64,000 nt of DNA from Amyelois transitella (taxonomy: Eukaryota > Arthropoda > Insecta > Lepidoptera > Pyralidae), in assembly GCF_032362555.1 (NCBI RefSeq), contig NC_083523.1, positions 4,935,501-4,999,500 of the forward strand, written 5' to 3'. Under the pieces are notes generated by a model. That model saw only the letters and a program-made list of their open reading frames with translations, did not search any database and was not told the origin of the DNA. Position 1 is the first letter of the stretch. Each line of letters opens with the position of its first letter. Below, in pieces: positions 7,151-57,825 of the stretch. Position numbers and translations under genes: made by a program.

Positions 7151-8144
7151 CTGTGCTTTACCTTAGGTCTTGTGAAAATTGGTATGGAAGAAAGACGTTA
7201 CATGTGTGTGTTGGAAGAGGTAGCATACAAAAAAGAATCAATCATGGTTTAAAGAAATCGTACCGATTACGTTATTATTCCATAACATTCCATATATTAA
7301 AGACTCATAAAGCCTCGTTTTCTTAACTTAAAACAAAAAGTGCGCCTACGTAAAGCGACCCTAAATTTTCCATGTTATTATTGTATTCCATGGCACTCAA
7401 TCGATGATGTTTACGAAAACGTGGTTTCTATTTCCGTAATTCGTTTTATGTCACTTGGTGCGCTGACGCAGGTGGTCACGAGCGCGACTTGACGAGAAAC
7501 CGACACTGCTTTCCCCACCAAAATCTTTGATCCCAGATTAGATTAACGATGCCGATTGCTAAACTAGAGATTTGTGATTGTCAGTCAAAACCGTTTGAAA
7601 TTGAGCTGCTTTATTTTAACTTAACTGAATTTAGTAGAGCGTAACTTTTGATGTTGATCAGAATGTTTGTTGTTGTATTTTTTTCGGTTTTTAATGTGGA
7701 CATAAATGTTAACTAAAATTAAAAAAAAAAATTCGTGCCATCATTTTAAAGTATTCAACATCAGAAATTCGTCTATAGCAGAGCAGAAGGAGATAATCAC
7801 ATATCGCAATAATTTCTCAAAAATTCTTGGGATGAAAAAGTTAATAAAAAGAGTTGACGAAATTAAGATTGAAGTTTTTTATAAGAGCCGAGATTTATGA
7901 GTACAAATAATTAAGTTCTCTTAAAATCGTTTCAAAATTATAAAATTATTTATCCTCTCGCTTTTAGTTGAAACTTTTCCAAGTCTAGAACAGCAGACAT
8001 TACAAGTATACAACACAAGGGAGGCGAGAGGCACAACACAAAAGGACCGTTGAAATATTAAAAGCAGGCCTAAATAAAAAGCCGTCTTTCCTAGATAACT
8101 GTCGGGGAATTAGGAAATCTCGTCTATAAAGAGTACCAGAATCG

Positions 8145-8250
8145 GATGAAGCGAAAGTAGTATGAAGGTACCGCAGCAAATGGAATTATATAGTCTCTGC
8201 CTACTCCTTCGAGAATGAGGCGTGATTTTATGTATGTTTGTATGAAAGGT
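8145..8250 (+). mobile_element. 3' end fragment of the 17.7 kb LINE family, diverged
   Basis: The block runs parallel to the last ~110 bases of the intact LINE (20958-21056). It includes 'gtctctgcctac', a GGCGTGA stop-codon context and the tatgtatg tail. It is heavily mutated, so this is an old 5'-truncated insertion. Confidence 0.6.
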
Positions 8251-8504: not shown

Positions 8505-8595
8505 AATCAACCAACAGTCTTAAACAGAATGATAGGCCACAATCAGCTGGATGGCTTAGTGATTGAATTAAGATTTAGATATCGATACATTCGTT
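8505..8595 (-). mobile_element. SINE-S fragment
   Basis: Matches the middle of the abundant SINE-like family (described at 46694-46959), from 'ccaacagtctt' to 'gattgaattaagattt'. Both ends are missing. Confidence 0.5.
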
Positions 8596-9934: not shown

Positions 9935-10190
9935 GGCGGCCTCTGTGGCGCAACGTTAGTACGCACTGTCTGTGACACCGGAGGTCCCGGGTTCAAATCC
10001 CGGCCAGGGCATGAGGAGAAAAGAACTTTTTCTGATTGGCCTGGGTCCTGGATATTTATCTAGTATATTAGTATTTATTATAAAATATAGTATCGTTGAG
10101 TTAGTATCTCGTAACACAAGTCTCGAACTTACTTCGAGGCTAACTCAATCTGTGTAATTTGTCCCGTATATATTTATTTTATTTATTTAA
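9935..10190 (+). mobile_element. tRNA-derived SINE, near full length
   Basis: The head is tRNA-like with both internal RNA polymerase III boxes: an A-box-like TGGCGCAACGTTAGT at 9946-9960 and a perfect B box GGTTCAAATCCC at 9990-10001. A tRNA-unrelated body follows (agaaaagaactttttctg) and an A/T-rich tail of TATTTATT repeats. Head, body and simple tail in this order are the definition of a tRNA SINE. Elements of this appearance are common in lepidopteran genomes. It is not a functional tRNA gene: acceptor and anticodon arms do not fold cleanly. Confidence 0.85.
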
Positions 10191-10644
10191 TTATAAAAAA
10201 AGTGGAAAGAGACAAAAAAAAAACACGTGCTTATTTAGAAATCAAATTATAATTTACGTATCTCAAAGAATTTGGCAACGTATCAAAATTCCTAAATCAC
10301 AATCGAGAAGTCTAGACTAGGCTCATATTTCCGGCGAGGTCAATGGTATTGAGTAGTCAACGGAAGATAAATACTGGAGCCAAGTTAAAGCCATCCATTT
10401 ATCTGCCATTACTTTCTTTTCTGGAACAAATCCGAGCGCTCAATAAATATTATCAGACCTAAGTGATTTTGGGTGTTAGTCAGAGTCAGTATAATGAAAT
10501 AAAAATCTTCACCGTCGTTTTTTTAACGTAAGTACTGCAATAGAGAAACTTAACTTTAAAAGCATTAGGTAATATTCAACCTTTTGGTTTGGTTAACTAT
10601 TAATTAAAATGTGTTTTGTATCGTGGTAGCTTTAAAGTAATAGA

Positions 10645-10904
10645 TATACATAAATACATAAAGTCACATCTATATCCCTTAGGGGGTAGACAGAGCCAAC
10701 CGTCTTGATAAGACTATAGGCCACGTTCAGCTGCTTAGCTTAATGATAGAATTGAGAACCAAATAGTGACAGGTTGCTAGCCCAGCGCCTTAAAAAAGAA
10801 TCGCAAGATTACAGCTTACCCCTTAGCCTTTTACGACATCCGTGAGAAAAAGATGGACTGGATCTTTTTGTCACGGATGCATTAGTGCCGGGACCAATAC
10901 GGCA
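10645..10904 (-). mobile_element. SINE-S copy, nearly complete
   Basis: On the plus strand it reads as the reverse of the family: tail, 'ctatatccctt', 'agacagagccaac', 'ggccacgttcagctg', 'atagtgacaggttgctag', and finally 'gtgccgggacc'. Mutated at many positions. See 46694-46959 for the family description. Confidence 0.75.
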
Positions 10905-12518: not shown

Positions 12519-12712
12519 TCAATCAATCAATCTTAAAAAGACTGATAGGCCACGTTCGGCTGTTTGGCTTAATGAAAGAATTGAGATTCAAATAGTGACA
12601 GGTTGCTAACCTATCGCTTAAAAAGAATTCCAAGTTTAAAAACCTATCCCTTAGTCGCCTTTTGCGACATACATGGGAAAGAGAAGGAATGGTCCTATTC
12701 TTTTTTCATCTC
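12519..12712 (-). mobile_element. SINE-S copy, tail missing
   Basis: Clear family match from 'actgataggccacgttcgg' to 'aaagagaagg'. The LINE-like tail end is lost or replaced by 'aatcaatcaatc'. Confidence 0.65.
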
Positions 12713-12937: not shown

Positions 12938-13461
12938 ACAAGGCGCGCATTAGATATACGCGGCTTATAAAAAAGAATACAAAATTGATAACAGTTGCTT
13001 CCACTCAAAATAATTTAAAAGATAAAAACAACAATATGTTTTAAATTAGACCAAATTACAGATAAATGTGAAATTACAGATACATTTGAAATTTGATTCA
13101 AATTAATTTAGTTTCTTGGAGTTTATGGTGGGTGACACAAGATTGTAGTATTTTGAGAAGGAGAACCCGTCTCAGTGGCAGTGAAATTCTTGAACCGTCC
13201 AGGCGGCTATTGTTTACCGTTAGCTATAATTCTGTCCAGCAGACTGACAAATTGCTGTGTTTATTTATCACAAGATTATGTAGGAGGTACTGCTTATTCA
13301 CAAGCCTTAACTTGTTTTTTGTAGGTACTTATTTCGAATCATTTTTTACGATAACTTCTACTTTGATTTTTACAACAAGAAAGTGCCACTTGGGTATATA
13401 CATATGTATTGTCTTGTTTGTTAGTATGTATGTGAACTATTTATTGCTCATACATATATTA

Positions 13462-13540
13462 AATCATGTCTTTATCCCCTGCGGGGTACACAGAGTCGAC
13501 AGTCTTGGGAAGACTGGAAGGCAGTCAGTCACACAGTTCA
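13462..13540 (-). mobile_element. SINE-S fragment (tail side)
   Basis: Matches the LINE-like tail end of the family ('atccc..gcggggta', 'cagtcttg'). The 151-codon ORF that overlaps it (13093-13548) ends inside this repeat and is therefore not believable as a gene. Confidence 0.5.
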
Positions 13541-15737: not shown

Positions 15738-15975
15738 ATACATACATATAATCACATCTATATCCCTTGTGAGGTAGACAGAGCCAACAATCTTGAAAAG
15801 ACTGATAGGCCACGTTCACCTGTTTGGCTTAAAGATAGAATTGAGATTCAAATAGTGACAGGTTGCTTGCACATCGCATAAAAGAAAAATTCTTAGTTTA
15901 TAAGCCGATCCCTTAGTCGCCTTTTACGATAGCAATGGGAAAGAGATGGAGGTCCTATTCTTTTTCTTCTCGATA
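15738..15975 (-). mobile_element. SINE-S copy, nearly complete
   Basis: Tail of catacata repeats, then 'cacatctatatcccttg', 'ggtagacagagccaac', and through to 'gagatggaggtcctattct'. Only the extreme head is missing. Confidence 0.75.
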
Positions 15976-17739: not shown

Positions 17740-20700
17740 GCCAATATGCCAATCTAAGGTCTGCCGCGCCGATGGATGATGGATAAAGCATGGCTAGGGG
17801 CGAGCCTAGTCTCGAGCGTGCCACTTCCGCCATGGGGTTGGGCGACCCCCAGGTAATGGCTAGCCTTACCCTGGCATGCGGGGCTCTGCTGGGGCGGACA
17901 AAATTGTTCCCTTGCGTCTCGTGGGAATCGCATGGATGCAAATTTTTTGAAAGAGCACCTAAATGGCGGCGATGGTGTCCGCACCCCATCACGTCTCGTT
18001 CCCGGCGGGAGCGGTATGCGGTCTGCTGAAAGCCGCTTTGCGACGATGAATGTAAGAGGAGGAATGAAGGATAAAATTGAGGAAGTATGTCAGATGATGG
18101 GTGAAAGACGGTTGGATGTGTTGTGCGTGAATGAAACGAAGCGGAAAGGATGCGACGCGACGCAGCACGGTCCTTACACGGCGTATTGGTCTGGAATTTC
18201 CAGTACCAGCCGAGGCTGTCAAGGGGTCGGTCTAATCCTTTCTGCACGAATGGCTGAGTGTGTGAATGAGTATGAGTGTGTCAGCCCTCGTCTTCTATGG
18301 ATTAGGCTGAAAGTTGGAATCACTCGGATCTTCGTTTTAGGTGTTTATGCACCGTGGGATGTGGGTTCGAGGGGTACAACATCAGCAAAAAGCGAAAACG
18401 AGGAGTTCTGGAATAGTGTAAGAGAAGTATTGAAAGTTACCAAGCCAAATGAGAAGATTATTATGTTAGGTGATTTTAATGGATGGGTGGGTGTAAAGCG
18501 TGATGGTTATGAAAAGGTGCTTGGTGCGTTTGGTGACGAAAAGGTGAATGATAATGGAAGAAGTGTATTAGAAATTTGTCTAGAGTGGGATCTTTTTGTG
18601 TCGAACTCAATGTTTCAACATAAAGAGATCCACACCTATACAAGAGTGGAAGGTATTTTAAAAAGTATGATAGACTTTGTGATTGTAGATGAAAGATTGA
18701 AGAACAAAGTGCTGGATACCCGTGCATATCGCGGTGCTGGCATTGACTCGGACCATTTACTGGTGATATCCCGGATAAGGGGTATCTTCAATCGCTGGCG
18801 GCACAGGGTAAGGGAGCAAACCAGCGCTTTGGAAAGAGTGAAAGTAGAAAATTTGCAAGATATGGATGTAGGTAAGAAGTATATTAATAGACTGAAGGAT
18901 GAAATTGAAGATTTAGATGAGAGGAGCAATATTGAAGATGGATGGAAGGAATTTAAAGAAAGAATTGTGAAAGTAGCTGTTGAAGTGTGTGGTGTAAGTA
19001 GAAGAAGGAAAGGGAAAAATCACAAAAATGCGTGGATGAGTAAAGATGTGCAAGAACTTGTGCGATTAAAGAAGAAAGCATGGCTGGATTTGTTAGCAGC
19101 AAAAGCTAACTTAAGAATGCAAGAGGTTATAGATGAGGATGTGAATGAAGCACGTAAGGAATATAAAAAAATGAAAGATTTGGTTAAGAAAGCTGTGATT
19201 AGAAAGAAAGAAGAGTATAAAGAGGATTTTGACAAAAGGCTATCAAAAGACTTTCAGTCAAATCTGAAAGTATTCTGGAAATCCGTAAGGTCAGCCCGAG
19301 GAAAAACTATAACCAGAGAGCTGACTAGGATCAGATGCCAGGATGGTAGCGTTGTGAAAGGAGAAGAATGTGTGCTAAAGATATGGAAGGACTATTTTGA
19401 GAGTTTATTTGAAAAAAAGGAAGAAAATAAGAAAGAGTTCTGCTATAGCGAAGAAAAAGAGAATGAGATGGAAGGCGAAATTGAAATGTTTGAAATTGTG
19501 GAAGCACTTAAGAGTATGAAAGCGGGTAAGGCTGCCGGGTATGATAGAGTGTCGGTCGAGATGCTTAAAGCAGGAAAAGGCGTCGTAGCTAGACAGTTGT
19601 ACTGCCTTTTCAATTTGTGCTGGAGAAGCGGCCGAGTACCAAAAGATTGGTGTAAGGCTGTTATTGTGCCACTTTACAAAGGAAAAGGGTCACAACTGGA
19701 CTGCAAAAATTATCGTGGTATAAGCCTGCTTAGCGTCGTCGGCAAATTGTATGCTAAGGTATTGATTAATAGAGTCAGGAATGAAACTGATGACAAAATA
19801 TGGGATGCTCAAGCGGGATTTCGAAAGGGAATGGGATGTACTGATCAGGTCTTTTCTTTGCGGTGCATAACCGAAAAGTTTTTGGCCAAGAGTCAAAAAG
19901 TCTATTGCACATTCGTGGATTTGGAAAAGGCCTATGACAGAGTTGAGAGGAATGAATTGTGGTCAGCACTTTCTATGCATGGGGTGAGCAGTCTCTTGAT
20001 ACGAGCACTGAAATCCTTATATGAGGATTCGAGTGCTTGTGTCAGGATAAACGGAGCGCACACTGAGTGGTTTAAGATTGAGAAAGGTGTTAGGCAGGGA
20101 TGTGTTGCGTCACCGTGGCTGTTCAACCTATTTATGGATAGTTGTTTGACAGATTTGAAAGAGTCTGAAAGTGGATTAAGGATGAATGAATTACTCGTCA
20201 AATGTCTGCTCTATGCCGACGATCAGGTTATACTGGCGTCATCAGCGGAGGAGTTACAGGAGATGGTAAACTGTATGCATGAAGCTTTAAAAGAGAAAGG
20301 AATGAAAGTGAACGTAAGTAAAACTAAAACACTGGTTTTTGAAATGGAGAAAGAAATGACAGCATGTAATATTTTGATTGGAGGAGAAAAAGTTGAGCAA
20401 GTGAAAGAGTTTGTATATCTCGGATCAAAGTTTACATCAGATGGCAAGTGTGATAGTGATATTGAAAGGAGAGTGAACGCGGGGAACATGGTGAATGGAG
20501 CTTTGCATGCCTTTATGAGCAGTCAGAAACTATCCAAAAAGGCTCGACTGGCTGTGCACAGGGGCGTGTTGGTCCCGACATTAATGTATGGGAGTGAAAG
20601 TTGGGTATGGCAAAAGAAGCACGAAAGCAGAATAAATGCAGTGGAAATGAGAGCGTTAAGGAGTATGTTGGGTGTGAAATTGAGTGACCGGATAAGGAAC

Positions 20701-21060
20701 AGCGTGATAAGGGAATGTTGTGATGTGAAAGAAGATGTAGTTACAGGAATAGAAAAGGGTATGTTGAGATGGTTCGGTCATGTGGAGAGGATGAATGAAA
20801 ACAGGTTGACTAAGCAGATATACAAGGAGAGTGTGGAGGGAAAGGTCGGGGTGGGAAGACCTAGACGAACATATCTTGATCAAATTAAGGACGTCCTGGT
20901 GAAGGGTCAGGTCAAAAGTGCCCGAAACCGCCGAGCTTGCATGAAGAGAGTTATGAATGTGGATGAAGCAAAGGAAGTATGCAGGGATCGTGGCAAGTGG
21001 AAAGAGGTAGTCTCTGCCTACCCCTCCGGGAAAGAGGCGTGAGTTTATGTATGTTATGTA
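17740..21060 (+). mobile_element. Full-length LINE (RTE-like), intact, with 12-bp target duplication
   Basis: The element is bounded by perfect direct repeats TGATAAATTCAT at 17728-17739 and 21061-21072, so both insertion edges are fixed. Inside are a 192-base GC-rich 5' leader, one uninterrupted ORF (17932-21042), and only 18 bases after the stop codon, made of TATG/TTATG repeats. One ORF with an APE endonuclease, no ORF1, almost no 3' UTR and a short tandem tail is the RTE-type plan; the clade assignment is inference. The intact frame and perfect duplication indicate a recent insertion that may be autonomous. Older 3' fragments of the family lie at 8145, 35179, 43205, 57125 and 58590. Confidence 0.93.
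17932..21042 (+). CDS. LINE endonuclease / reverse transcriptase polyprotein, 1036 aa
   Basis: This protein copies its own RNA into a nicked chromosomal site (target-primed reverse transcription). The N-terminal third is an APE-like endonuclease: FATMNVRGG (Asn40), CVNETK (catalytic Glu68), GDFNGW and the C-terminal SDHLLV with the catalytic His. A Lys/Glu-rich, probably helical linker follows. The reverse transcriptase holds NYRGISLLSV, AQAGFRKG, FVDLEKAYD (Asp663), GVRQGCVASP and the YADD active site at residues 761-764. The C-terminal domain includes FVYLGSKF and WFGHVERM and ends PSGKEA. All catalytic residues expected for both enzymes are present and no stop or frameshift interrupts them. 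The start is the first ATG of the frame; the endonuclease fold begins near residue 36, so a later start cannot be excluded. Translation ends 18 bases before the element's edge. Confidence 0.95.
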   Translation: MDANFLKEHLNGGDGVRTPSRLVPGGSGMRSAESRFATMNVRGGMKDKIEEVCQMMGERRLDVLCVNETKRKGCDATQHGPYTAYWSGISSTSRGCQGVGLILSARMAECVNEYECVSPRLLWIRLKVGITRIFVLGVYAPWDVGSRGTTSAKSENEEFWNSVREVLKVTKPNEKIIMLGDFNGWVGVKRDGYEKVLGAFGDEKVNDNGRSVLEICLEWDLFVSNSMFQHKEIHTYTRVEGILKSMIDFVIVDERLKNKVLDTRAYRGAGIDSDHLLVISRIRGIFNRWRHRVREQTSALERVKVENLQDMDVGKKYINRLKDEIEDLDERSNIEDGWKEFKERIVKVAVEVCGVSRRRKGKNHKNAWMSKDVQELVRLKKKAWLDLLAAKANLRMQEVIDEDVNEARKEYKKMKDLVKKAVIRKKEEYKEDFDKRLSKDFQSNLKVFWKSVRSARGKTITRELTRIRCQDGSVVKGEECVLKIWKDYFESLFEKKEENKKEFCYSEEKENEMEGEIEMFEIVEALKSMKAGKAAGYDRVSVEMLKAGKGVVARQLYCLFNLCWRSGRVPKDWCKAVIVPLYKGKGSQLDCKNYRGISLLSVVGKLYAKVLINRVRNETDDKIWDAQAGFRKGMGCTDQVFSLRCITEKFLAKSQKVYCTFVDLEKAYDRVERNELWSALSMHGVSSLLIRALKSLYEDSSACVRINGAHTEWFKIEKGVRQGCVASPWLFNLFMDSCLTDLKESESGLRMNELLVKCLLYADDQVILASSAEELQEMVNCMHEALKEKGMKVNVSKTKTLVFEMEKEMTACNILIGGEKVEQVKEFVYLGSKFTSDGKCDSDIERRVNAGNMVNGALHAFMSSQKLSKKARLAVHRGVLVPTLMYGSESWVWQKKHESRINAVEMRALRSMLGVKLSDRIRNSVIRECCDVKEDVVTGIEKGMLRWFGHVERMNENRLTKQIYKESVEGKVGVGRPRRTYLDQIKDVLVKGQVKSARNRRACMKRVMNVDEAKEVCRDRGKWKEVVSAYPSGKEA

Positions 21061-21117: not shown

Positions 21118-21330
21118 CATACATACATACCTACATATAATCACGTATATATCCCTTGCAGACTCCCTTGTTGACAGAGCCTATAGACTTGAAAAGACTG
21201 ATAGGCCACGTTCAGCTGTTTGGCGTAATGATAGAATTGAGATTCAAATAGTGACAGGTTGCTACCCCATCGCTTAAAAGAAGAATCCGTTTATAAGCAT
21301 ATCCCTTAGTCGCGTTTTACGATATATTTA
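21118..21330 (-). mobile_element. SINE-S copy
   Basis: Starts about 45 bases after the LINE's right target duplication with catacatacctacatata, then the family body to 'cttagtcgcgttttacgata'. Contains a small internal insertion at 'cagactcccttgttgaca'. Confidence 0.7.
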
Positions 21331-21594: not shown

Positions 21595-21715
21595 CACACA
21601 CACACACATAATCACGTCTATATCCCTTGCGGGGTAGACAGAACCAACATTCTTGAAAAGACTGATAGGCCACGTTCAGCTGATTGGCTTTATGATGGAA
21701 TTGAGATTCAAATAA
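21595..21715 (-). mobile_element. SINE-S fragment with (AC)n tail
   Basis: Begins at an (AC)n microsatellite and matches the tail half of the family up to 'gaattgagattcaaata'. Confidence 0.6.
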
Positions 21716-22844
21716 ATAATAATATTTATCCTACTTTTAAATAATCCTCATAAATTGACCAATATTGCTTAAACGTTTACTTTCTCGTTAAACTTTTACC
21801 AGATTGCTGGCATACTTCTCGTTACGCAACACAGCGCACCTGTTCGAGCGTACATAAATCAAAAATACTCCGGCAATTACGCAATTAAACCTTATAATTA
21901 CATCAAAATGCGTGTAATCACAATTTTGACCTTTCACCGCAAATCCTGAGCTCTTCGAAATGCTGGTCATCGTGTGACTTTTCTCCCGCACTCACTTCAC
22001 CGCTCGAATACTATCGAATCGATGCCAACAAACAGCTTTCCACAGCGTTAAGGGCCAAGCCAGCCGCGATATAAAACCTCAGATTATATTGTATGCCCTT
22101 ATTGCAACGCTCGTAAAGAGCAGAATCAATACGTCATTCTATTCGATCGTTAAAGTTCATACGACAACTCATCATGTTTAGTATATACCTAAGAAGTTAA
22201 GCGCTTTCGTAAACTCATGGAAAGAAGTGAAAGCAAAGATCATGATTAAAATGAAATAAATTTAGGTTGGTTATAGTAAGTTACTAAGTAAAATTTTGAC
22301 TGAAGATTCAAAAAAGTATTAAAGGGCACCCTACACTTACTTGTGCTTTTTAATAAGGGATCGGGGACTATATAGAAAATAAAATAGGCACGACAAAATT
22401 TATTCACCGTTCACATCCGTTGATCTACTCTGTGACTGTGACGCAGCTATCTGACGTTCTTGCCTCTGAACCGAAAGTTATGAATTCAATCTGATGTAAA
22501 GTTTTGGGTGTTTATCTATGAAAAATTTTGTTATTAAAGAAAAACAAAACATTACATTTAAGTGAGCCCTCCTCGTCTTTAAGTACCACCTATCAAGTAG
22601 CAAGCAGGTGATCTACGCCTCCTTATTATAAATGTACGGTAAAATGTATATGGTACGGTGGTATGGTACCATCGAATCTCAATAATTGCTAATAAATCTG
22701 TACTTTGCGACCCATACCTACTGGTAAACAGAAAGTTAAATAACGACGTAGGCTTTGGCAAATGAAGGTGGATTAGGAAGGTGTTTAGAAAATTTTAGAA
22801 GGGTGTGAAGTTCGGGCTAAAGCTTGTTCATATACTAATCAAAC

Positions 22845-22950
22845 ATTCATACAAGTCACGTCTAAATCCCTTGCGGAGTAGACAGAGCCAACAGTCATGA
22901 AGGCTGAGAGGCAAGACTGGAAGGCCACGTTCAGCTGTATGGCTTAATGA
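22845..22950 (-). mobile_element. SINE-S fragment
   Basis: Tail half of the family, 'cacgtctaaatcccttgcgg' to 'cagctgtatggcttaatga', with a small internal duplication around 'gaggcaagactgg'. Confidence 0.6.
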
Positions 22951-23759: not shown

Positions 23760-23895
23760 ATACATACCTACATACATATATATTATCACGTCTTTATCCG
23801 TTACGGGGTAGACAGAGCCAACAGTCACAAAAAGACTGAAAAGCCACATTCAGTGACAAGATGCTAGTTCGTCGTCTAAAAGAATCCCATGGTTT
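23760..23895 (-). mobile_element. SINE-S fragment
   Basis: Tail half of the family with catacatacata at its edge. An internal part between 'aagccacattcag' and 'tgacaagatgctag' has been deleted. Confidence 0.6.
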
Positions 23896-25572: not shown

Positions 25573-28247
25573 ATGAATATGACAATGAAGAACGAAGTCT
25601 TGGAACTTGAAACTAAAATAATTAATCATGAGGCATATGGACAATCGTTAGTACACTATTACTTTATATTCATGTATCTTTATTATCTCATTAAATTTTG
25701 ATGAAAGATGAATAATTTTAGAATACTTATAAATAAATTATCCTTGGTTAAACTGGTCCATTCTATATCATAGTACTTCTAATTGTTACCTTAAAATATA
25801 TTGTCTTTCAGATACAAATGGTCTCCCAGAGATTTTGAGCTGGGTTCGGCTCTAGGACAAGGAAAATTTGGTCATGTTCATGTTGCAAGAGAAAAAAAGA
25901 CTGGGTTTCTGGTTGCGATCAAGACATTATTTAAGTCTCAGATTGTGAAATCAAGATGTGAACGACAAGTAATGAGAGAGATTGAGATACAGTCCCACTT
26001 AAAGTAAGTATTTACTTGTCTTAAGTTTCATATTGTACATATGCTAAATTATAAAAAGTATGTTAAAATAAATACAGAATTTTCATCATCCTTTCATGCC
26101 AGTCAGCAATAAATTATAGTTTCAGCCTGCTACTTGTCTTCCCTTGAACTTGGGATTCTCTTTAAGGTGGATTTTGGATTCTCAATTTAGTCATCCAGTT
26201 AAAGATGTTGTTAAGGTACTATGACTGTCGACTTTGTATAACCTATATGAGATGTGATATGTGAGCTAGTCCTATATACATACATATAGTCATGTCTATA
26301 TACCTTGTGAGGCAAACAGAGCCAACAGTCTTCAAAGACTGAAATCCTCATTCAGCTGTATGGCTTTATAATAGAAATGAATTTCAAATAGTGAATGGCT
26401 AACCCATTGCCTAAAAGAGGAAAGACTATACCTTAGTCGCCTTTTTCAACATCCATTTCTTTCCTATTTGTATTGTAATTTTGCACAAAAAATATTTCAT
26501 TTGGCTTCTACATTTTTTTTAATGTGAGGCTCAGTGATTGAGGATAGTGACATAACATCAACAAATTTTTTACCCTGTTCTTAACATGGTTTCAGGCATC
26601 CAAACATTCTACGTTTGCTGACGTGGTTCCATGATGAAAGACGCATCTACCTTGTAGTTGAGTTTGCGGCTGGCGGAGAGCTGTACAAACATCTCACCAA
26701 CTCTCCCAAAGGCAGGTTTCCAGAGGCTAAGGCAGCAAAGTATATTTATCAGGTATAAAGTTTACTAAGTATGAATGTTTTAAAGAAAGCAATGGCACTG
26801 ATTTACATGTAAAATTAAATCTGGCCAAATGCTCATGTGAATAGTGCAAGTTTCCCATTCAATTCAAATTGTGCTAACGCTTAGCTTATAACTTTAAACA
26901 CCCATAAAATTATTACATACTCAGTATTGTTTTATAACTAGTGAAAAAATTAGTTAATCACCTGCTATAGACTACTGAAATAGCTGGCTTTACTACCTGA
27001 GAGATTATAAAACGGAAATAATAATGTATTGCAGGTAGCAGATGCAGTGGAATACTGCCATCAGCACCACGTAATGCATCGTGACATCAAACCAGAGAAC
27101 ATCCTGGTTGCCTTCAGTGGAGACCTCAAACTCGCAGACTTCGGCTGGTCTGTGCATGCGCCTTCAGAAAGGTACATAGCATAGGATTAATACTTACTTG
27201 TTTCTATTTTACAATAGAAGTAACAACCTTGATGTTTTCAACTTGATTGGTCTGGTATAACCAGGATTTAAGTATGCTGATGATCACATTTATAAAATTG
27301 TACTTAATAAATGGTTCAAAAAAGTAAAATAAGAAATATTACGCCTAGTGCTTTTTGGATAGGTTTAACTTTATCATTATCCGGCCATACAGCGAGTGTG
27401 GTCATTCAGTTTTTCAGGGCTTGTCTGTTTCTACCCTTTTAGGGATATGAAACTGATTATATGTATGTGATCTTAAAAATATTGGAAGTTTCAATTATTT
27501 TTAAGTGGAGTAATCCCAATTCAAGGTAATATGAAAAATTTACAAAACTAAAACAAAATTGTAATGTTAATTTACAGGCGTAAAACAATGTGTGGCACAC
27601 TAGATTATCTCCCGCCAGAAATGATAAAACGCGAGGTGTACGACGTGTCAGTAGACCAGTGGTGCATCGGGGTCCTACTGTATGAGTTTCTGGTAGGAAA
27701 GCCCCCCTTTGAGAGTGAAGGCCAAGATAAAACTTACAACAGAATTCTAACATTGGACATGGTCTATCCTGAGTATGTTCCAGAAGGTGCTAAAGACCTC
27801 ATTTCCAAGGTAAATACAATATTTATTACTCCTGATTTTACACATTACTAGCCAAAGGTCCTGTCAAGAGAAGCCTAAACTGACGAACTTGCATGATAAG
27901 AGTTATAAATATGAAGGAGACCGGGTTGCGCCTATGACCATAATACTCTTCAACCTTAAATTTATTTGTACTGGTCCATTGTCTACTTGATATAATCAAA
28001 TAAGAATTGAATGTTTTTGGTACATTATGTTGTGCCTGTGTTATAAATTTTCCATCCCTGTCTACCTAAAATAAATGTAAAGCATGTGAAATATGGATGA
28101 TCAATTAGAATTGTTATTCATATTTTATTTTGTTTGTTGCAGCTTTTAAAACCAGCCAGCAAAGAAAGGTTGCCTTTGTCTGAAGTGAAGAAACATTATT
28201 GGGTGAAACAGTTTTATAACAATGGATTAGCAAAAGGAGACTCATAG
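25573..28247 (+). CDS. AurB: Aurora kinase, B type, 298 aa, six exons
   Basis: Serine/threonine kinase of the chromosomal passenger complex, acting at centromeres and the spindle midzone in mitosis. Exons 25573-25646, 25812-26003, 26596-26752, 27035-27171, 27578-27809 and 28143-28247 join with all frames preserved (897 bases). The glycine loop GQGKFG is at residues 40-45, VAIK Lys62, MHRDIKPEN with Asp158, DFG at 176-178, activation loop [16 protein letters not shown] with Thr190, then APE-equivalent PPE. The RRKTMCGT loop and a short 25-residue N-terminus favour Aurora B over Aurora A; the family assignment is firm, the B subtype likely. The first exon is predicted from its ATG, donor GTTAGT and matching phase. 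It lies tail to tail with the isomerase gene 583 bases away. Intron 2 holds a SINE-S copy. Confidence 0.93.
26275..26465 (-). mobile_element. SINE-S copy in Aurora kinase intron 2
   Basis: From 'catacatatagtcatgtcta' to 'cttagtcgcctttttcaaca'. Opposite in sense to the host gene. Confidence 0.65.
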
Positions 28248-32943: not shown

Positions 32944-35900
32944 CTACCATTCGACCAGTCTAAGAGACACGGGAGACTTGGGAGACAGAAGGAAATCAAA
33001 CTGAATGTCCAGTTCACCGTCGAATTCCACTCGCCATCGCTGCAAGATCTGAAAAAGATTTAAATTGATAATTAACATTCTTTGAACAATGTGGTATCGA
33101 GAATCCACTATTTTTCATCACATCTATTTTTCTTTTATTCTATTACCTATATCACATCCTGACGGAGGAAGCACTACGTTTCATCTTATTTTACTTTAGC
33201 GATGTCAACCAGAACGGCTGGACCAGACTTAGATGTTGAAAACCGGAAGAAATAGAAAGAAATGTCAAAATGCGGACAACCTACCCCGAACTTTATTGGT
33301 TACCACTATTACCACAATAGACGGTAATATCATTTATATGCCGTCAGTATTTTCAGTTTTAAATGCGACCAATTAAAAAAACATCAGAAATCTACTGTAT
33401 ACAGACATACGATTTATTACCTCTGTGTAGACAGAGCCAAACACTCTTGCAAAGACTGAGGCCATGGTCAGACATATACTCGATAGCAAAAAAATTACCT
33501 TAGCTAACAATAAATGCAGTTCTAACTCGACGAATCGCTTCCCGGGGCACATACGGCGTCCGCGACCGAAAGGAGCGACTAAAGAAGCCGCGTGCGGCTC
33601 TCGGCATTCCAGCCATCTCTCCGGGAGGTACTCCTGCGCACGCCAAAAGTTCTCCTCGCGTCGACACGCTGCACCTGTGTGGGCTAACACGAAGGTCTGG
33701 AAACAAATAGTAAATCTTTAAATAATACTTGGGGTGTGTACAATGCTTTGAAAGTTTGAAATTGTTTTTGTGAGATAAGATGGTTTCATACCGAAGCAAA
33801 GCCTCAGAAAAACACTAAATATGTACTAACAAAGGTTTTAAAGATTTGTTCAAATTACCCCGGCTGGCAATTTATGTCCAGATATAGTCATCGGCGCCTC
33901 CAAAAGTCTGGCAAGAAACGGTGCGGTGGGAAGCAGCCGGAAGGCTTCATTGGTTGCTGCCTTCACGGCTGGAGCAGCTGCCATCTCCTCAGCCTTCAAG
34001 ACTCCACAAACTGGCAATTCCGACCGGATTTTCTGCTGCCAGTCTGGTCGCCCGCTCAACAGGTAGAGAAGAAAGACTAAGCTGTTCGCCAACTGTGAAA
34101 GGATACGATCGTCGAATGCCTATTAAAAAAAACTACACTAGTCAAATGATTCGTCTAGTCGCTAATTTTGGCTACTAATGTTCGAAACCAGTTATTGAAC
34201 AAAACTACTGAAGTTCTAAGCTTCTGTCGTAGAATTAATATGAACGCAAGTAAGTGGACCAGAAAGCTAAATTATCGAAATTCAAAATCGTAAAGAAAAG
34301 TCAAAAATTTGCCACATAATTGGTGAAAAATTCGGAAAAAGTTCTTGTAGTTTTTAGCAAAAATTTATCGTTCGAGGTCATAACTTCCGCAGACAATATT
34401 TACTTAGGAGACGTAATTTTACTTCAGTATGTGTAAGTAACTTACAGTTTCAATACCAGCTGTTATGAAGTCTATAACTGCGGCTTTCTTGTCTCGCATG
34501 TCGAGAGCGGGATTCTCCAAAATTTTCAAGAAAATCTCCTGCATGCCGTCATCCTGCGATGAGCCACAAGTACGGGACTTCGCTTCTTCCATTAAATCCG
34601 ATACTATCCTGTCGACAATTATTGTTGATGTAGCATTTCGATCGGATATAGGTACATATCTGCAAAACATTATTTCGATACGACATAAGATATTCTCAAG
34701 TATTTTTTTATAAATATAGCATATTTTCACACATATAACCCACAAGCATACTATAAGTTATTTACTCTAACGAAAGTCATAGTTTGGGCCAAAGTGTGAG
34801 CTAAAATCATATTAATTTTCCTTTATTTGAGAGGGTTTTGCCATCGACTATCCTTTTATAATACCATAATCGCCAAGAAATGTATAAAGTAAAACTAATC
34901 TTATTTCAAAATCATTACTTAACCGCTGCGTACCCTACACGACTCACGTGTGTATGGTCTCCTCGCTCCAAACGAAGGTACGGTAGAGGCGAGTGGGCGC
35001 GAACTTCCACAGCGGGGCTCCATAGTAGGAGTCTCTCTGGGCTCGGAAGTGGGCCTTCACCGCCGTCGCCAGGGTGGCTGCGCGGCCAGACATGCTGCGA
35101 TCGAGGAACCCCAGCCGAGTTCCCAGCATTAGGCCGCAGACCGCTAAAAAGACATTATTAAATTAATGTTAAAACAATGTTAAATCATGTGGAGAGGATG
35201 AATGAAAACAGGTTGACTAAGCAGATATACAAGGAGAGTGTGGAGGGAAAGGTCGGAGTGGGAAGACCTAGACGAACGTATCTTGATCAAATTAAGGACG
35301 TCCTGGTAAAGGGTCAGGTCAAAAGTACCCGAAACCGCCGAGCTTGCATGAAGAGAGTTATGAATGTGGATGAAGCGAAGGAAATATGCAGAGATCGTGG
35401 CAAGTGGAAAGAGGTAGTCTCTGCCTACCCCTCCGGGAAAAAGGCGTGATTTTATGTATGTTAAAACAATTAATGGTGCGGTGAGGCTAATGGGTGCGAA
35501 CTTCTATTAGAGAGGGTAGCGTAATAAGAATCTCTTTGGGCTCTGAAGTGGGCATTGACCGGCGAGGCCAGGATGCTAGAAAATTACTTACTCGTACATT
35601 ATATACATTAGATAAATAGATATTCTCTTACTACCCCGCACCAAATTCTCTCTCAGACAATGTTTTTTGTGGTTGCCTGAAAGAGCGATTGCATAAGCTA
35701 TTAGGCCGCCTTGTGTACATTATCTTAGCTTAGCAGGATAAGTATTTATGTAATATTTTTTGTACATTAAAGGGTTCTATTCTATTCACTCACTACATTA
35801 ATCGCATCTTTACCCTTGGAGAGGCAGTAGCCACAAAACTCGAATGCCACGTTTGGCTGGATGGAATTGCGAAAGAACCAGCAGGCTATAGAAAATTCAC

Positions 35901-42974: not shown

Positions 42975-43050
42975 AAATCTCAATATGCCTTTCAGTTTCT
43001 TCAAGACCCTTGGCTCTGCTTTCCCCGATAGAGATAAAAACGTGGTAGAA
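42975..43050 (+). mobile_element. Diverged SINE-S fragment
   Basis: 'tgcctttcagtttcttcaag', 'cttggctctgctttcccc', 'gatagagataaaaacgtgg' follow the tail half of the family with several changes. Confidence 0.4.
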
Positions 43051-44164: not shown

Positions 44165-44250
44165 TCTGAACGTGGCCTTTTAGTCTTTTCAAGACTGTTG
44201 ACACTGTCTAGTCCGCAAGGGATTTAGACGTGTTATATGTATGTATGTTA
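44165..44250 (+). mobile_element. SINE-S fragment (tail half)
   Basis: 'ctgaacgtggcctttt', 'cttttcaagactgttg', 'ctgtctagtccgcaagggat', then a tatgtatgtatg tail. Confidence 0.65.
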
Positions 44251-46230: not shown

Positions 46231-46693
46231 TTGATTCCCTTGTTGACTCCGTCATATCAATGCATGGTGCATTGATTTATCAGACCTATATTTATCTATA
46301 TAACATTCATGTTTTCCAGAAATATCTGGAAATCATTCGCGATAATCACCGAGTACATAAGCATACTTTTATATTGAAAATTAAAGCGTTGAAAAATACA
46401 TATACATATACTTACTTTTTTATTTTGCAAATACAGTCACTTAACTTTTGCCGCAGGATGGGACCATTGAATTATTCACAAAAATAAGAGTATAATGAAA
46501 ATAACGGGGCAATTATTCAGATTTTCAAAGCACTACTACAACTACATTTCTTCCTATGGATACATTTTAAATACGTCCAAGTATTATCAGGTAAAGAATA
46601 ATACAAATATTTCAAACTTAGTTACATAAAAATTAATCTTTATAATACTTTAGAGTACCTATAGCTCAATTTATTCCTTGTTAATATGATCAT

Positions 46694-46959
46694 GTGTCGT
46701 GTGGTTCCCGGCACCAAAATAAAAAAAATAATAGGACCAATCCATCTCGTTTCCATGGATGTCGGAATAGGCGACTAAGGGATAGGCTTATAAACTTGGG
46801 ATTCTTCTTTCAGGCGATGGGCTAGCAACCTGTCACTATTTGAATCTCAATTCAATCATCAAGCCAAAAAGCTGAACGTGGCCTATCAGTCTTTTCAAGA
46901 CTGTTGGCTATGTCTACCCCGCAAGGGATATAGACGTGACTATATGTATGTATATATGA
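46694..46959 (+). mobile_element. SINE-S, complete reference copy with 12-bp target duplication
   Basis: Perfect direct repeats TAATATGATCAT at 46682-46693 and 46960-46971 define the edges. The ~266-base body runs from 'tgtggttcccggcacc' through 'ggactaagggataggctta'-type sequence, 'gcaacctgtcactatttga', 'gctgaacgtggcctatcag', 'cttttcaagactgttggc' to 'tctaccccgcaagggatata', 'gacgtgac' and a tatgtatg tail. It has no coding capacity. The first bases include a B-box-like GTGGTTCCCGGC but no convincing A box, so the head may be truncated or not tRNA-derived. The last ~43 bases closely match the 3' end of the LINE at 17740-21060. The plus sense is defined by that tail. At least 15 copies or fragments lie in this window. 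Confidence 0.85.
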
Positions 46960-46971
46960 TAATATGATCAT

Positions 46972-49155: not shown

Positions 49156-49357
49156 ATACCTTGTATCGAATTTTGAAAATAATTGTATTCTTTTCTAAAA
49201 TAGACATCATAAAAATAATACCTATATATATATCTTGCGTTAGAAGCTCTTAATCTTGCCACAACAATACAACTACTTGATGGCGGACTCTGTTAGTATC
49301 TGTGTAGCAGAATTTTATTAAAGACTTAATAAAAAATTTAATCCTTATATTAAGCCA

Positions 49358-49448
49358 AACGTTTGAGGGTGGCCTTTCAGTCTTTCCAAGACTGTTGGTA
49401 CTATCTACCCCGCAAGGGATATAGACGTTATTATATGTATGTATGTAA
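49358..49448 (+). mobile_element. SINE-S fragment (tail half)
   Basis: 'gagggtggcctttcagtctt', 'ccaagactgttggtac', 'ctaccccgcaagggatatag', then a tatgtatgtatg tail. Confidence 0.65.
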
Positions 49449-51933: not shown

Positions 51934-51990
51934 TCGTAGATTATGATTTGTTATATGAATACTTAAATCACAGATATTCCTGAAAGAAGT

Positions 51991-52255
51991 GCCGTGTGGT
52001 TCCCGGCACCAATACAAAAAGAATAGGACCACTCCATTTCTTTCTCATGGATGTCGTAAAAGACGACTAAGGGATAGGCTTACAAACTTGGGATTCTTAG
52101 TTAGGCGATGAGCTAGCAACCTGTCACTATTTGAATTTCAATTCCATCATTAAGCCAAATAGCTGAACGTGGCCATTCAGTCTTTTCAAGCCTGTTGGCT
52201 CTGTCTACCCCGCAAGGGATATAGACGTGACCATATGTATGTATGTATGTATGTA
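51991..52255 (+). mobile_element. SINE-S copy, complete
   Basis: Full family body from 'cgtgtggttcccggcacc' to 'gggatatagacgtgaccata' and (TATG)n. A shorter flanking repeat AAGTGC is seen on both sides (after 'gaaag' and after 'atgt'). Confidence 0.85.
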
Positions 52256-57611: not shown

Positions 57612-57825
57612 AAATTATTACGTCTATATCCATTGTGGGGTAGATAGAGTCAGTCTTGAAACCCTGATAGGCCACTTTCAGCTGTTACGGTGAATAATAG
57701 AGATTTAAATAGATCCCGTCACTATTTGAATCCCAGCCAATCCCAAGTTTAGAAGCTTAGTCTACCCTTAGTCGCCTTTTACGACATCCACGTGAAAGAG
57801 ATGGGGGTGGAGTAATAGAATAGTC
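57612..57825 (-). mobile_element. SINE-S copy
   Basis: From 'ttattacgtctatatcc' to 'gtgaaagagatggggg'. An internal stretch is rearranged around 'gatcccgtcactatttgaat'. Nested against SINE-T. Confidence 0.65.

Follow-up and report, generated by a model that had tools for sequence, protein, structure and literature searches.

The SINE family SINE-S and the LINE family LINE-A, both represented by full-length copies in the 64,000-nucleotide stretch of DNA analysed here (the window), share a 3' tail that ends in a TATG-type repeat, and it is highly probable that SINE-S is copied in trans by the endonuclease and reverse transcriptase of the LINE clade that LINE-A represents in the window. An earlier note on this DNA had proposed the two as a likely LINE/SINE partner pair, and the proposal is supported by the shared tail with its terminal repeat, by target-site duplications (TSDs) of similar length whose overlap with the TATG repeat is also alike, by the abundance of the elements and by near-identical copies of each. 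In the mechanism we envisage, the LINE enzyme would nick the target DNA, the freed DNA end would anneal to the terminal (UAUG)n repeat of the RNA, reverse transcription would begin at the 3' tail common to SINE-S and the LINE, and insertion would leave a duplication of about 8–16 bp. The LINE tail would accordingly have a double duty, encoding the last residues and the stop codon while also acting as the recognition end. We infer from the sequences both that the enzyme recognises this tail and that SINE-S depends on the LINE enzyme for its mobility.

The full-length copy of LINE-A spans positions 17740–21060 of the forward strand (3321 bp) and is flanked by the 12-bp duplication TGATAAATTCAT. 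This is the intact LINE that had been reported in the window; it carries one uninterrupted open frame of 1036 amino acids (17932–21042, forward strand) for an endonuclease and a reverse transcriptase. The reverse transcriptase domain is recognised by Pfam (RVT_1, PF00078, 5.4e-41), and in the endonuclease region two Pfam families score just under their cut-offs (27.3 versus 27.4 bits and 21.8 versus 24.5 bits). The 3' tail, delimited by sequence and by the tail alignment, comprises the last codons, the TGA stop and the TATG repeat (21012–21060, forward strand). Two further pieces lie on the same strand: a 5'-truncated copy at 35179–35463, which is 97% identical and has the 13-bp TSD ATGTTAAAACAAT, and an older LINE-A-like 3' end at 8144–8242 (81%) with a like tail. 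The duplications of 12 and 13 bp previously given for the LINE copies are therefore both present, whereas the LINE tail quoted alongside them proved to be a blend of two copies, which read AAAGAGGCGTGAGTTT at 17.9 kb and AAAAAGGCGTGATTTT at 35 kb. Genomic LINE copies with a 5' end in hand are mostly 5'-truncated. A single endonuclease–reverse transcriptase frame, a very short 3' UTR and a simple-repeat end are features of the RTE clade, all of them found in LINE-A, and the best solved relatives of its protein are L1 ORF2p and R2, which leave the clade undecided. LINE-A is a putative RTE element, a name taken from the lepidopteran papers. As a separate observation, made by looking at LINE-A alone, a segment near the start of the frame (TCACGTCTCGTTCCCGGCGGG, 17989–18009) is complementary to the element's own tail (21022–21042) at 18 of 21 places; the score of 27 compares with 26 for the best of 1000 shuffles, but when the pairing is treated as an RNA duplex it is equalled or surpassed by 2 of 150 shuffled tails. 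Having come to light by inspection, this complementarity is suggestive only.

SINE-S at 46694–46959 (forward strand) is a full-length copy of 266 bp that shares its 5' start with most of the 41 aligned copies. It is bracketed by TAATATGATCAT at 46682–46693 on the left and 46960–46971 on the right, the perfect 12-bp duplication that the earlier note had described. A second full-length copy, also on the forward strand, lies at 51989–52249 (88.7% against the copy at 46694). The consensus, likewise 266 bp with a sharp 5' end in most copies, was built from 41 copies, namely 39 other full genome places and the two full-length window copies, with one cut copy (L078) left out of the alignment; individual copies differ from it by 1.5–7.2%. 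The estimate of at least 15 SINE-S pieces in the window is in agreement with the 17 segments that BLAST identified at E<=1e-5, the query copy counted. Most of these lie on the reverse strand, where pieces with a tail were found at 10646–10861, 13450–13522, 15738–15968, 22838–22950, 23769–23853 and 57620–57804, one with an intact tail at 21600–21714, and others, found by BLAST alone, at 8511–8581, 12528–12706, 21122–21325 and 26270–26456, together with a weak match at 33427–33471 (E 2e-6). The forward strand carries pieces with a tail at 44166–44246 and 49349–49447 and a weak match at 42987–43044 (E 2e-6). SINE-S is a short, non-coding, interspersed element that has TSDs and a constant 5' start, and its 3' end is homologous to that of a LINE of the same genome, as in a SINE with a LINE-derived tail.

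The LINE-related tail of SINE-S, with its TATG-type repeat and a predicted hairpin, occupies 46908–46959 (forward strand). An alignment by eye had given 34 of 43 agreeing positions with one 1-base gap; the shared tail and the single gap stand, and the count is slightly lower, at 31 identities in 40 columns between the SINE-S consensus tail and the LINE-A 3' end. The shared stretch is short and C-rich, and terminal TATG repeats alone mean little, which would favour chance or low complexity. With the repeats removed, however, both tails were shuffled with dinucleotides preserved and only 2 of 20,000 trials scored as high as the core alignment, and in a second test none of 5000 shuffles did so for any of four LINE tails (LINE-A, an older LINE-A variant composed by the analyst, and copies L111 and L105 of a second family, LINE-B). 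The match moreover is strictly 3'-terminal in SINE-S and in the LINE, and when the SINE-S tail is compared with the LINE along its entire length, it fits best at the LINE 3' end. The consensus-level comparison of tails, suggested earlier as a check, therefore gave a likeness far above chance, and a coincidental origin can be regarded as exceedingly improbable.

The likeness is confined to the tail. The SINE-S body gave no score against LINE-A above that of its own shuffles, and upstream of CTCTG the homology did not exceed shuffles for LINE-A (620 of 3000), the older variant (660) or L105 (2178), and was borderline for L111 (108 of 3000). A candidate origin of the SINE-S head in the LINE 5' region (CGTGTGGTTCCCGGC versus CGTCTCGTTCCCGGC) was rejected, as it too was not above shuffles. 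As had been pointed out, the shared stretch is still coding in the LINE and includes its TGA stop: the frame at 17932–21042 ends within it, which relates the SINE-S tail to LINE coding sequence. The tail would seem to have passed from the LINE to SINE-S. In 314 kb of fetched sequence, a sample enriched for SINE-S and LINE copies rather than random, 101 SINE-type tails were recognised with up to 5 substitutions allowed, and 89 of them follow a SINE body. Only two follow a LINE body, both of them fetched on purpose as chimeras, and the remaining 10 follow neither; in most of the latter a few SINE-S bases immediately precede the tail, which suggests very short pieces of SINE-S.

Both families are abundant and young. 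Exact patterns searched across the genome (327 Mb, 33 contigs) matched 16,743 SINE-S tails (34 bases, four variants), 18,355 SINE-S heads (21 bases) and 8,472 LINE-A 3' ends (34 bases, three ambiguous), with no match to the reversed pattern in any of the three cases. Of 2,069 candidates for the LINE-A 3' end, 40 copies were scored, and over 399 bp no differences separate them. For SINE-S, scoring covered 40 full-length places of 3,273 candidates, one of them the query; the 39 others are at least 97% identical to this near-consensus copy, four of them at 99%. These near-identical copies indicate that both families were recently active, and by this identity measure LINE-A appears to be the more recent of the two.

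The insertion signatures of the two families are also similar. A script that looked for exact duplications near both ends detected TSDs of at least 9 bp in 18 of 40 SINE-S copies and 16 of 22 LINE copies, against 1.5% (SINE) and 1.2% (LINE) in a swapped-flank control. These copies were the best matches to one SINE copy and to the young LINE end rather than random samples, and the test left out L053 (no tail recognised), L034 (flanks the same as those of L035) and nine LINE copies whose 5' flank was not in hand. Duplication lengths, whose comparison had also been proposed as a check, proved alike, ranging from 8 to 15 bp for SINE-S (median 11 bp) and from 8 to 16 bp for the LINE (median 12 bp). 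Furthermore, an overlap of the duplication with the TATG repeat was seen in 15 of 20 SINE-S cases and 13 of 17 LINE cases, compared with 27–29% of the chance matches in swapped flanks, as would suit a priming step in which the target end pairs with the repeat.

Which LINE serves SINE-S is less certain than that a LINE of this kind does so. A pattern search for LINE-like ends revealed a second family, LINE-B, with a tail of the type ...CCCAATGGGAAACAG(A/G)CGTGATGG..., and it is possible, if unlikely, that the SINE-S tail came from, and SINE-S is mainly served by, this sister family or an older LINE-A lineage rather than the LINE in the window. The 3' ends of the two families are alike, with a tail of one kind followed by a TATG repeat, and over the core up to the stop codon LINE-B scores higher against the SINE tail (45 for L111 and 46 for L105) than LINE-A does (38 for the young form, 42 for the older variant). 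Once the repeats are counted, the older LINE-A variant leads at 50, followed by LINE-B at 49 and 48 and young LINE-A at 42. The few LINE-B copies read are, however, short, mutated sequences that align only with many gaps upstream of the tail, whereas LINE-A has thousands of intact 3' ends as well as identical copies. The earlier note had named another LINE with a clearly better matching tail as grounds against the pair; LINE-B is about equal to LINE-A overall, being ahead over the core and behind the older LINE-A variant when repeats are counted. Since the LINE-B match is close to that of LINE-A, the partner is not unique, and the scores of the two together indicate that the tail belongs to a LINE clade. 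Within that clade LINE-A is the best measurable candidate, not a proven sole partner, and we infer that it, rather than its sister family, is the working partner today. The LINE-B copies L111, L105 and L112 were also seen to end in WKSIVSAYPNGKQ(A/T)-stop or close variants, again a tail of the same kind.

We also considered whether recombination or gene conversion at the DNA level, acting on SINE and LINE copies that lie close together, might have spread the shared tail, in which case it need be no recognition signal. Junctions of the sort that this process would leave do exist. Those joining a SINE body to a LINE tail, searched with up to two mismatches, occur at 19 places, 14 of which were accepted on reading, L128 and the first place in L129 (which has an intermediate tail) only weakly, while L118 and L125 are doubtful and L124, L127 and L131 were rejected; L113, a separate candidate chimera, was likewise rejected on reading. 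The converse, a LINE body with a SINE tail, was found as three exact junctions. A convincing TSD was detected in only one of 14 testable SINE-body/LINE-tail places (L114, 11 bp), the run having comprised the 14 accepted places and L118, less L117, whose left flank was not in hand; the duplication at L129 is only a match within tandem tails. For the LINE-body/SINE-tail class, judged by a cruder test that listed exact repeats with a minimum length of 10 or 9 bases, the figure was one of three (L110, 13 bp). The TSDs of L110 and L114 are what would be expected had each arrived as one insertion.

Taken together, 2 of 17 testable chimeras have a convincing TSD, well under the rate in pure copies, and most of them are consequently better explained by joining or conversion at the DNA level within the shared tail: a missing TSD is expected when the 5' flank of one insertion is joined to the 3' flank of another, and all four loci checked for neighbours (L109, L110, L114 and L115) adjoin other SINE-S pieces within a few hundred bases. 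We therefore rejected the idea that template-switch chimeras prove the use of one enzyme, and as support for a shared enzyme the chimeras are weak at best. As an account of the shared tail in general, however, recombination seems very improbable. The roughly 20 junctions, a lower bound given that the patterns tolerate few mismatches, stand against 16,743 exact SINE tails and 8,472 LINE ends; the bulk of SINE-S copies carry their own, family-specific version of the tail; and the TSDs and TATG-overlapping targets of SINE-S resemble those of the LINE. Two further features of these loci were noted, namely an inverted SINE-S copy directly upstream at both L109 and L115, and a mosaic at L132 in which LINE-like bases are followed by SINE-S from position 146 and then by a LINE tail.

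The tails of SINE-S and the LINE can fold, in prediction, into a five-pair stem with an inner CCC/GGG stem. Compared with shuffles, one SINE copy gave a z of -3.0, two other SINE copies -1.4 and -1.7, and two LINE copies -1.3 and -0.9. Across nine tails 97.2% of cells pair, against at most 63.9% in slid versions, a figure to be read with the structure having been derived from these same sequences. Covariation in these nine tails was not above chance (91 of 500 shuffles reach it), the sole double change in the stem being C-G in LINE-A to U-A in SINE-S. The hairpin was for this reason dropped as evidence, and a conserved hairpin as proof of recognition was rejected; the predicted folds are compatible with a recognised hairpin and are not evidence for one.

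Pairs of a SINE and a LINE sharing a tail have already been described in Lepidoptera, and SINE-S/LINE-A is a pair of that kind, as judged by description rather than by sequence in the case of PxSE5, SfSE1 and PxLINE1.1. In Plutella xylostella, PxSE5 and PxLINE1.1 have a common 43-bp 3' end (84%) and both carry ATGT repeats, SfSE1 of Spodoptera frugiperda is likewise paired with PxLINE1 by a 43-bp 3' end, and related LINEs with similar 3' ends are reported from other lepidopterans (PMC8010984). PxLINE1.1 is 3228 bp long, with an endonuclease, a reverse transcriptase and 13-bp TSDs, and LINE-A resembles it in length (about 3.2 kb; 3321 bp), in its two enzymatic domains, in its ATGT-type repeat and in a tail of about 43 bp shared with a SINE; the SINEs themselves differ, PxSE5 being 5S rRNA-derived (389 bp) and SfSE1 tRNA-derived (298 bp) (PMC8010984), whereas SINE-S (266 bp) showed neither match.

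Similarly, the 3'-terminal 43 bp of HaSE1 from Helicoverpa armigera are 82% identical to the end of HaRTE1.1, an RTE-type LINE, and HaSE1 and HaSE3 resemble SINE-S in their short flanking duplications and in a partner proposed from the shared tail (PMC3272025). HaSE1 and HaRTE1.1 end in TGA repeats, however, and SINE-S and LINE-A in TATG; the heads are of tRNA type in HaSE1 and of 5S type in HaSE3 (PMC3272025), and SINE-S showed a match to neither. Among heliconiine butterflies, Metulj and ZenoSINE are abundant SINEs, as SINE-S is. An RTE partner is suspected for Metulj from its tail, but Metulj differs from SINE-S in its tRNA head, which carries A and B boxes; ZenoSINE is like SINE-S in that a 5' head of unknown origin is fused to a LINE tail, which in its case is of Zenon type (PMC4016481, PMC6685494). 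The 3' tail of an RTE-clade LINE and a stringent recognition model also characterise Bov-tA/Bov-B and other RTE-partnered SINEs, with hosts and tails different from those of the SINE-S pair (PMC3747384). A 24-base SINE-S body string, both tails and the LINE protein had no match in viral contigs, the joint SINE/LINE tail pattern none in prokaryote genome contigs, and the SINE-S/LINE-A sequence strings none in the published text searched. The value of SINE-S/LINE-A lies in its being a clear, high-copy pair in which the shared end is protein-coding in an apparently active LINE, so that in LINE-A the same bases may be used for translation and for recognition of the RNA, and the many young copies of both elements would make the pair suited to a direct mobility test in insect cells.

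The least ordinary part of SINE-S is its head, which has no tRNA or 5S match. The consensus opens with GTGCCGTGTGGTTCCCGGCACC, its 5' start forms a short inverted repeat (GTGCCG...CGGCAC) and two internal TTTT runs follow. Rfam scans, made on the 51989 copy and the window, gave no tRNA or 5S match in that copy at E up to 10 and, with gathering scores as the threshold, no tRNA match at any SINE-S place in the window. SINE-S thereby differs both from SINEs with a tRNA-like head (the PxSE1/SfSE1, HaSE1 and Metulj type) and, on its A and C boxes, from those with a 5S-like head (the HaSE3 and PxSE4/5 type), since the best 5S boxes in the consensus have 7 of 16 (A box) and 11 of 22 (C box) mismatches. 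In the consensus a candidate A-box-like site with one mismatch was found at position 65 and candidate B-box-like sites with three mismatches each at positions 10 and 125. That SINE-S, a very successful element with over 16,000 intact tails, has a head derived from neither tRNA nor 5S RNA, and that it might do without the classical Pol III promoter, being transcribed in some other way and depending on the LINE tail for its copying, is a doubtful reading, to which we gave slightly less weight because the A-box-like site at 65 is followed by the weak B-box-like site at 125; these sites are compatible with a Pol III promoter and do not establish one. If confirmed, a head without a tRNA or 5S match would bear on what SINE transcription requires. 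ARAGORN detected no tRNA genes in the window, and a different SINE there, at 9939–10200, combines an ATTT-type tail with a head that Rfam clearly recognises as tRNA (32 bits). Finally, in two copies (L054 and L055) a tandem repeat of the initial 20 bases of SINE-S lies just upstream of the element's start, and two exact SINE-S heads lie 30 bp apart at positions 375751 and 375781 of contig C1 in G000.
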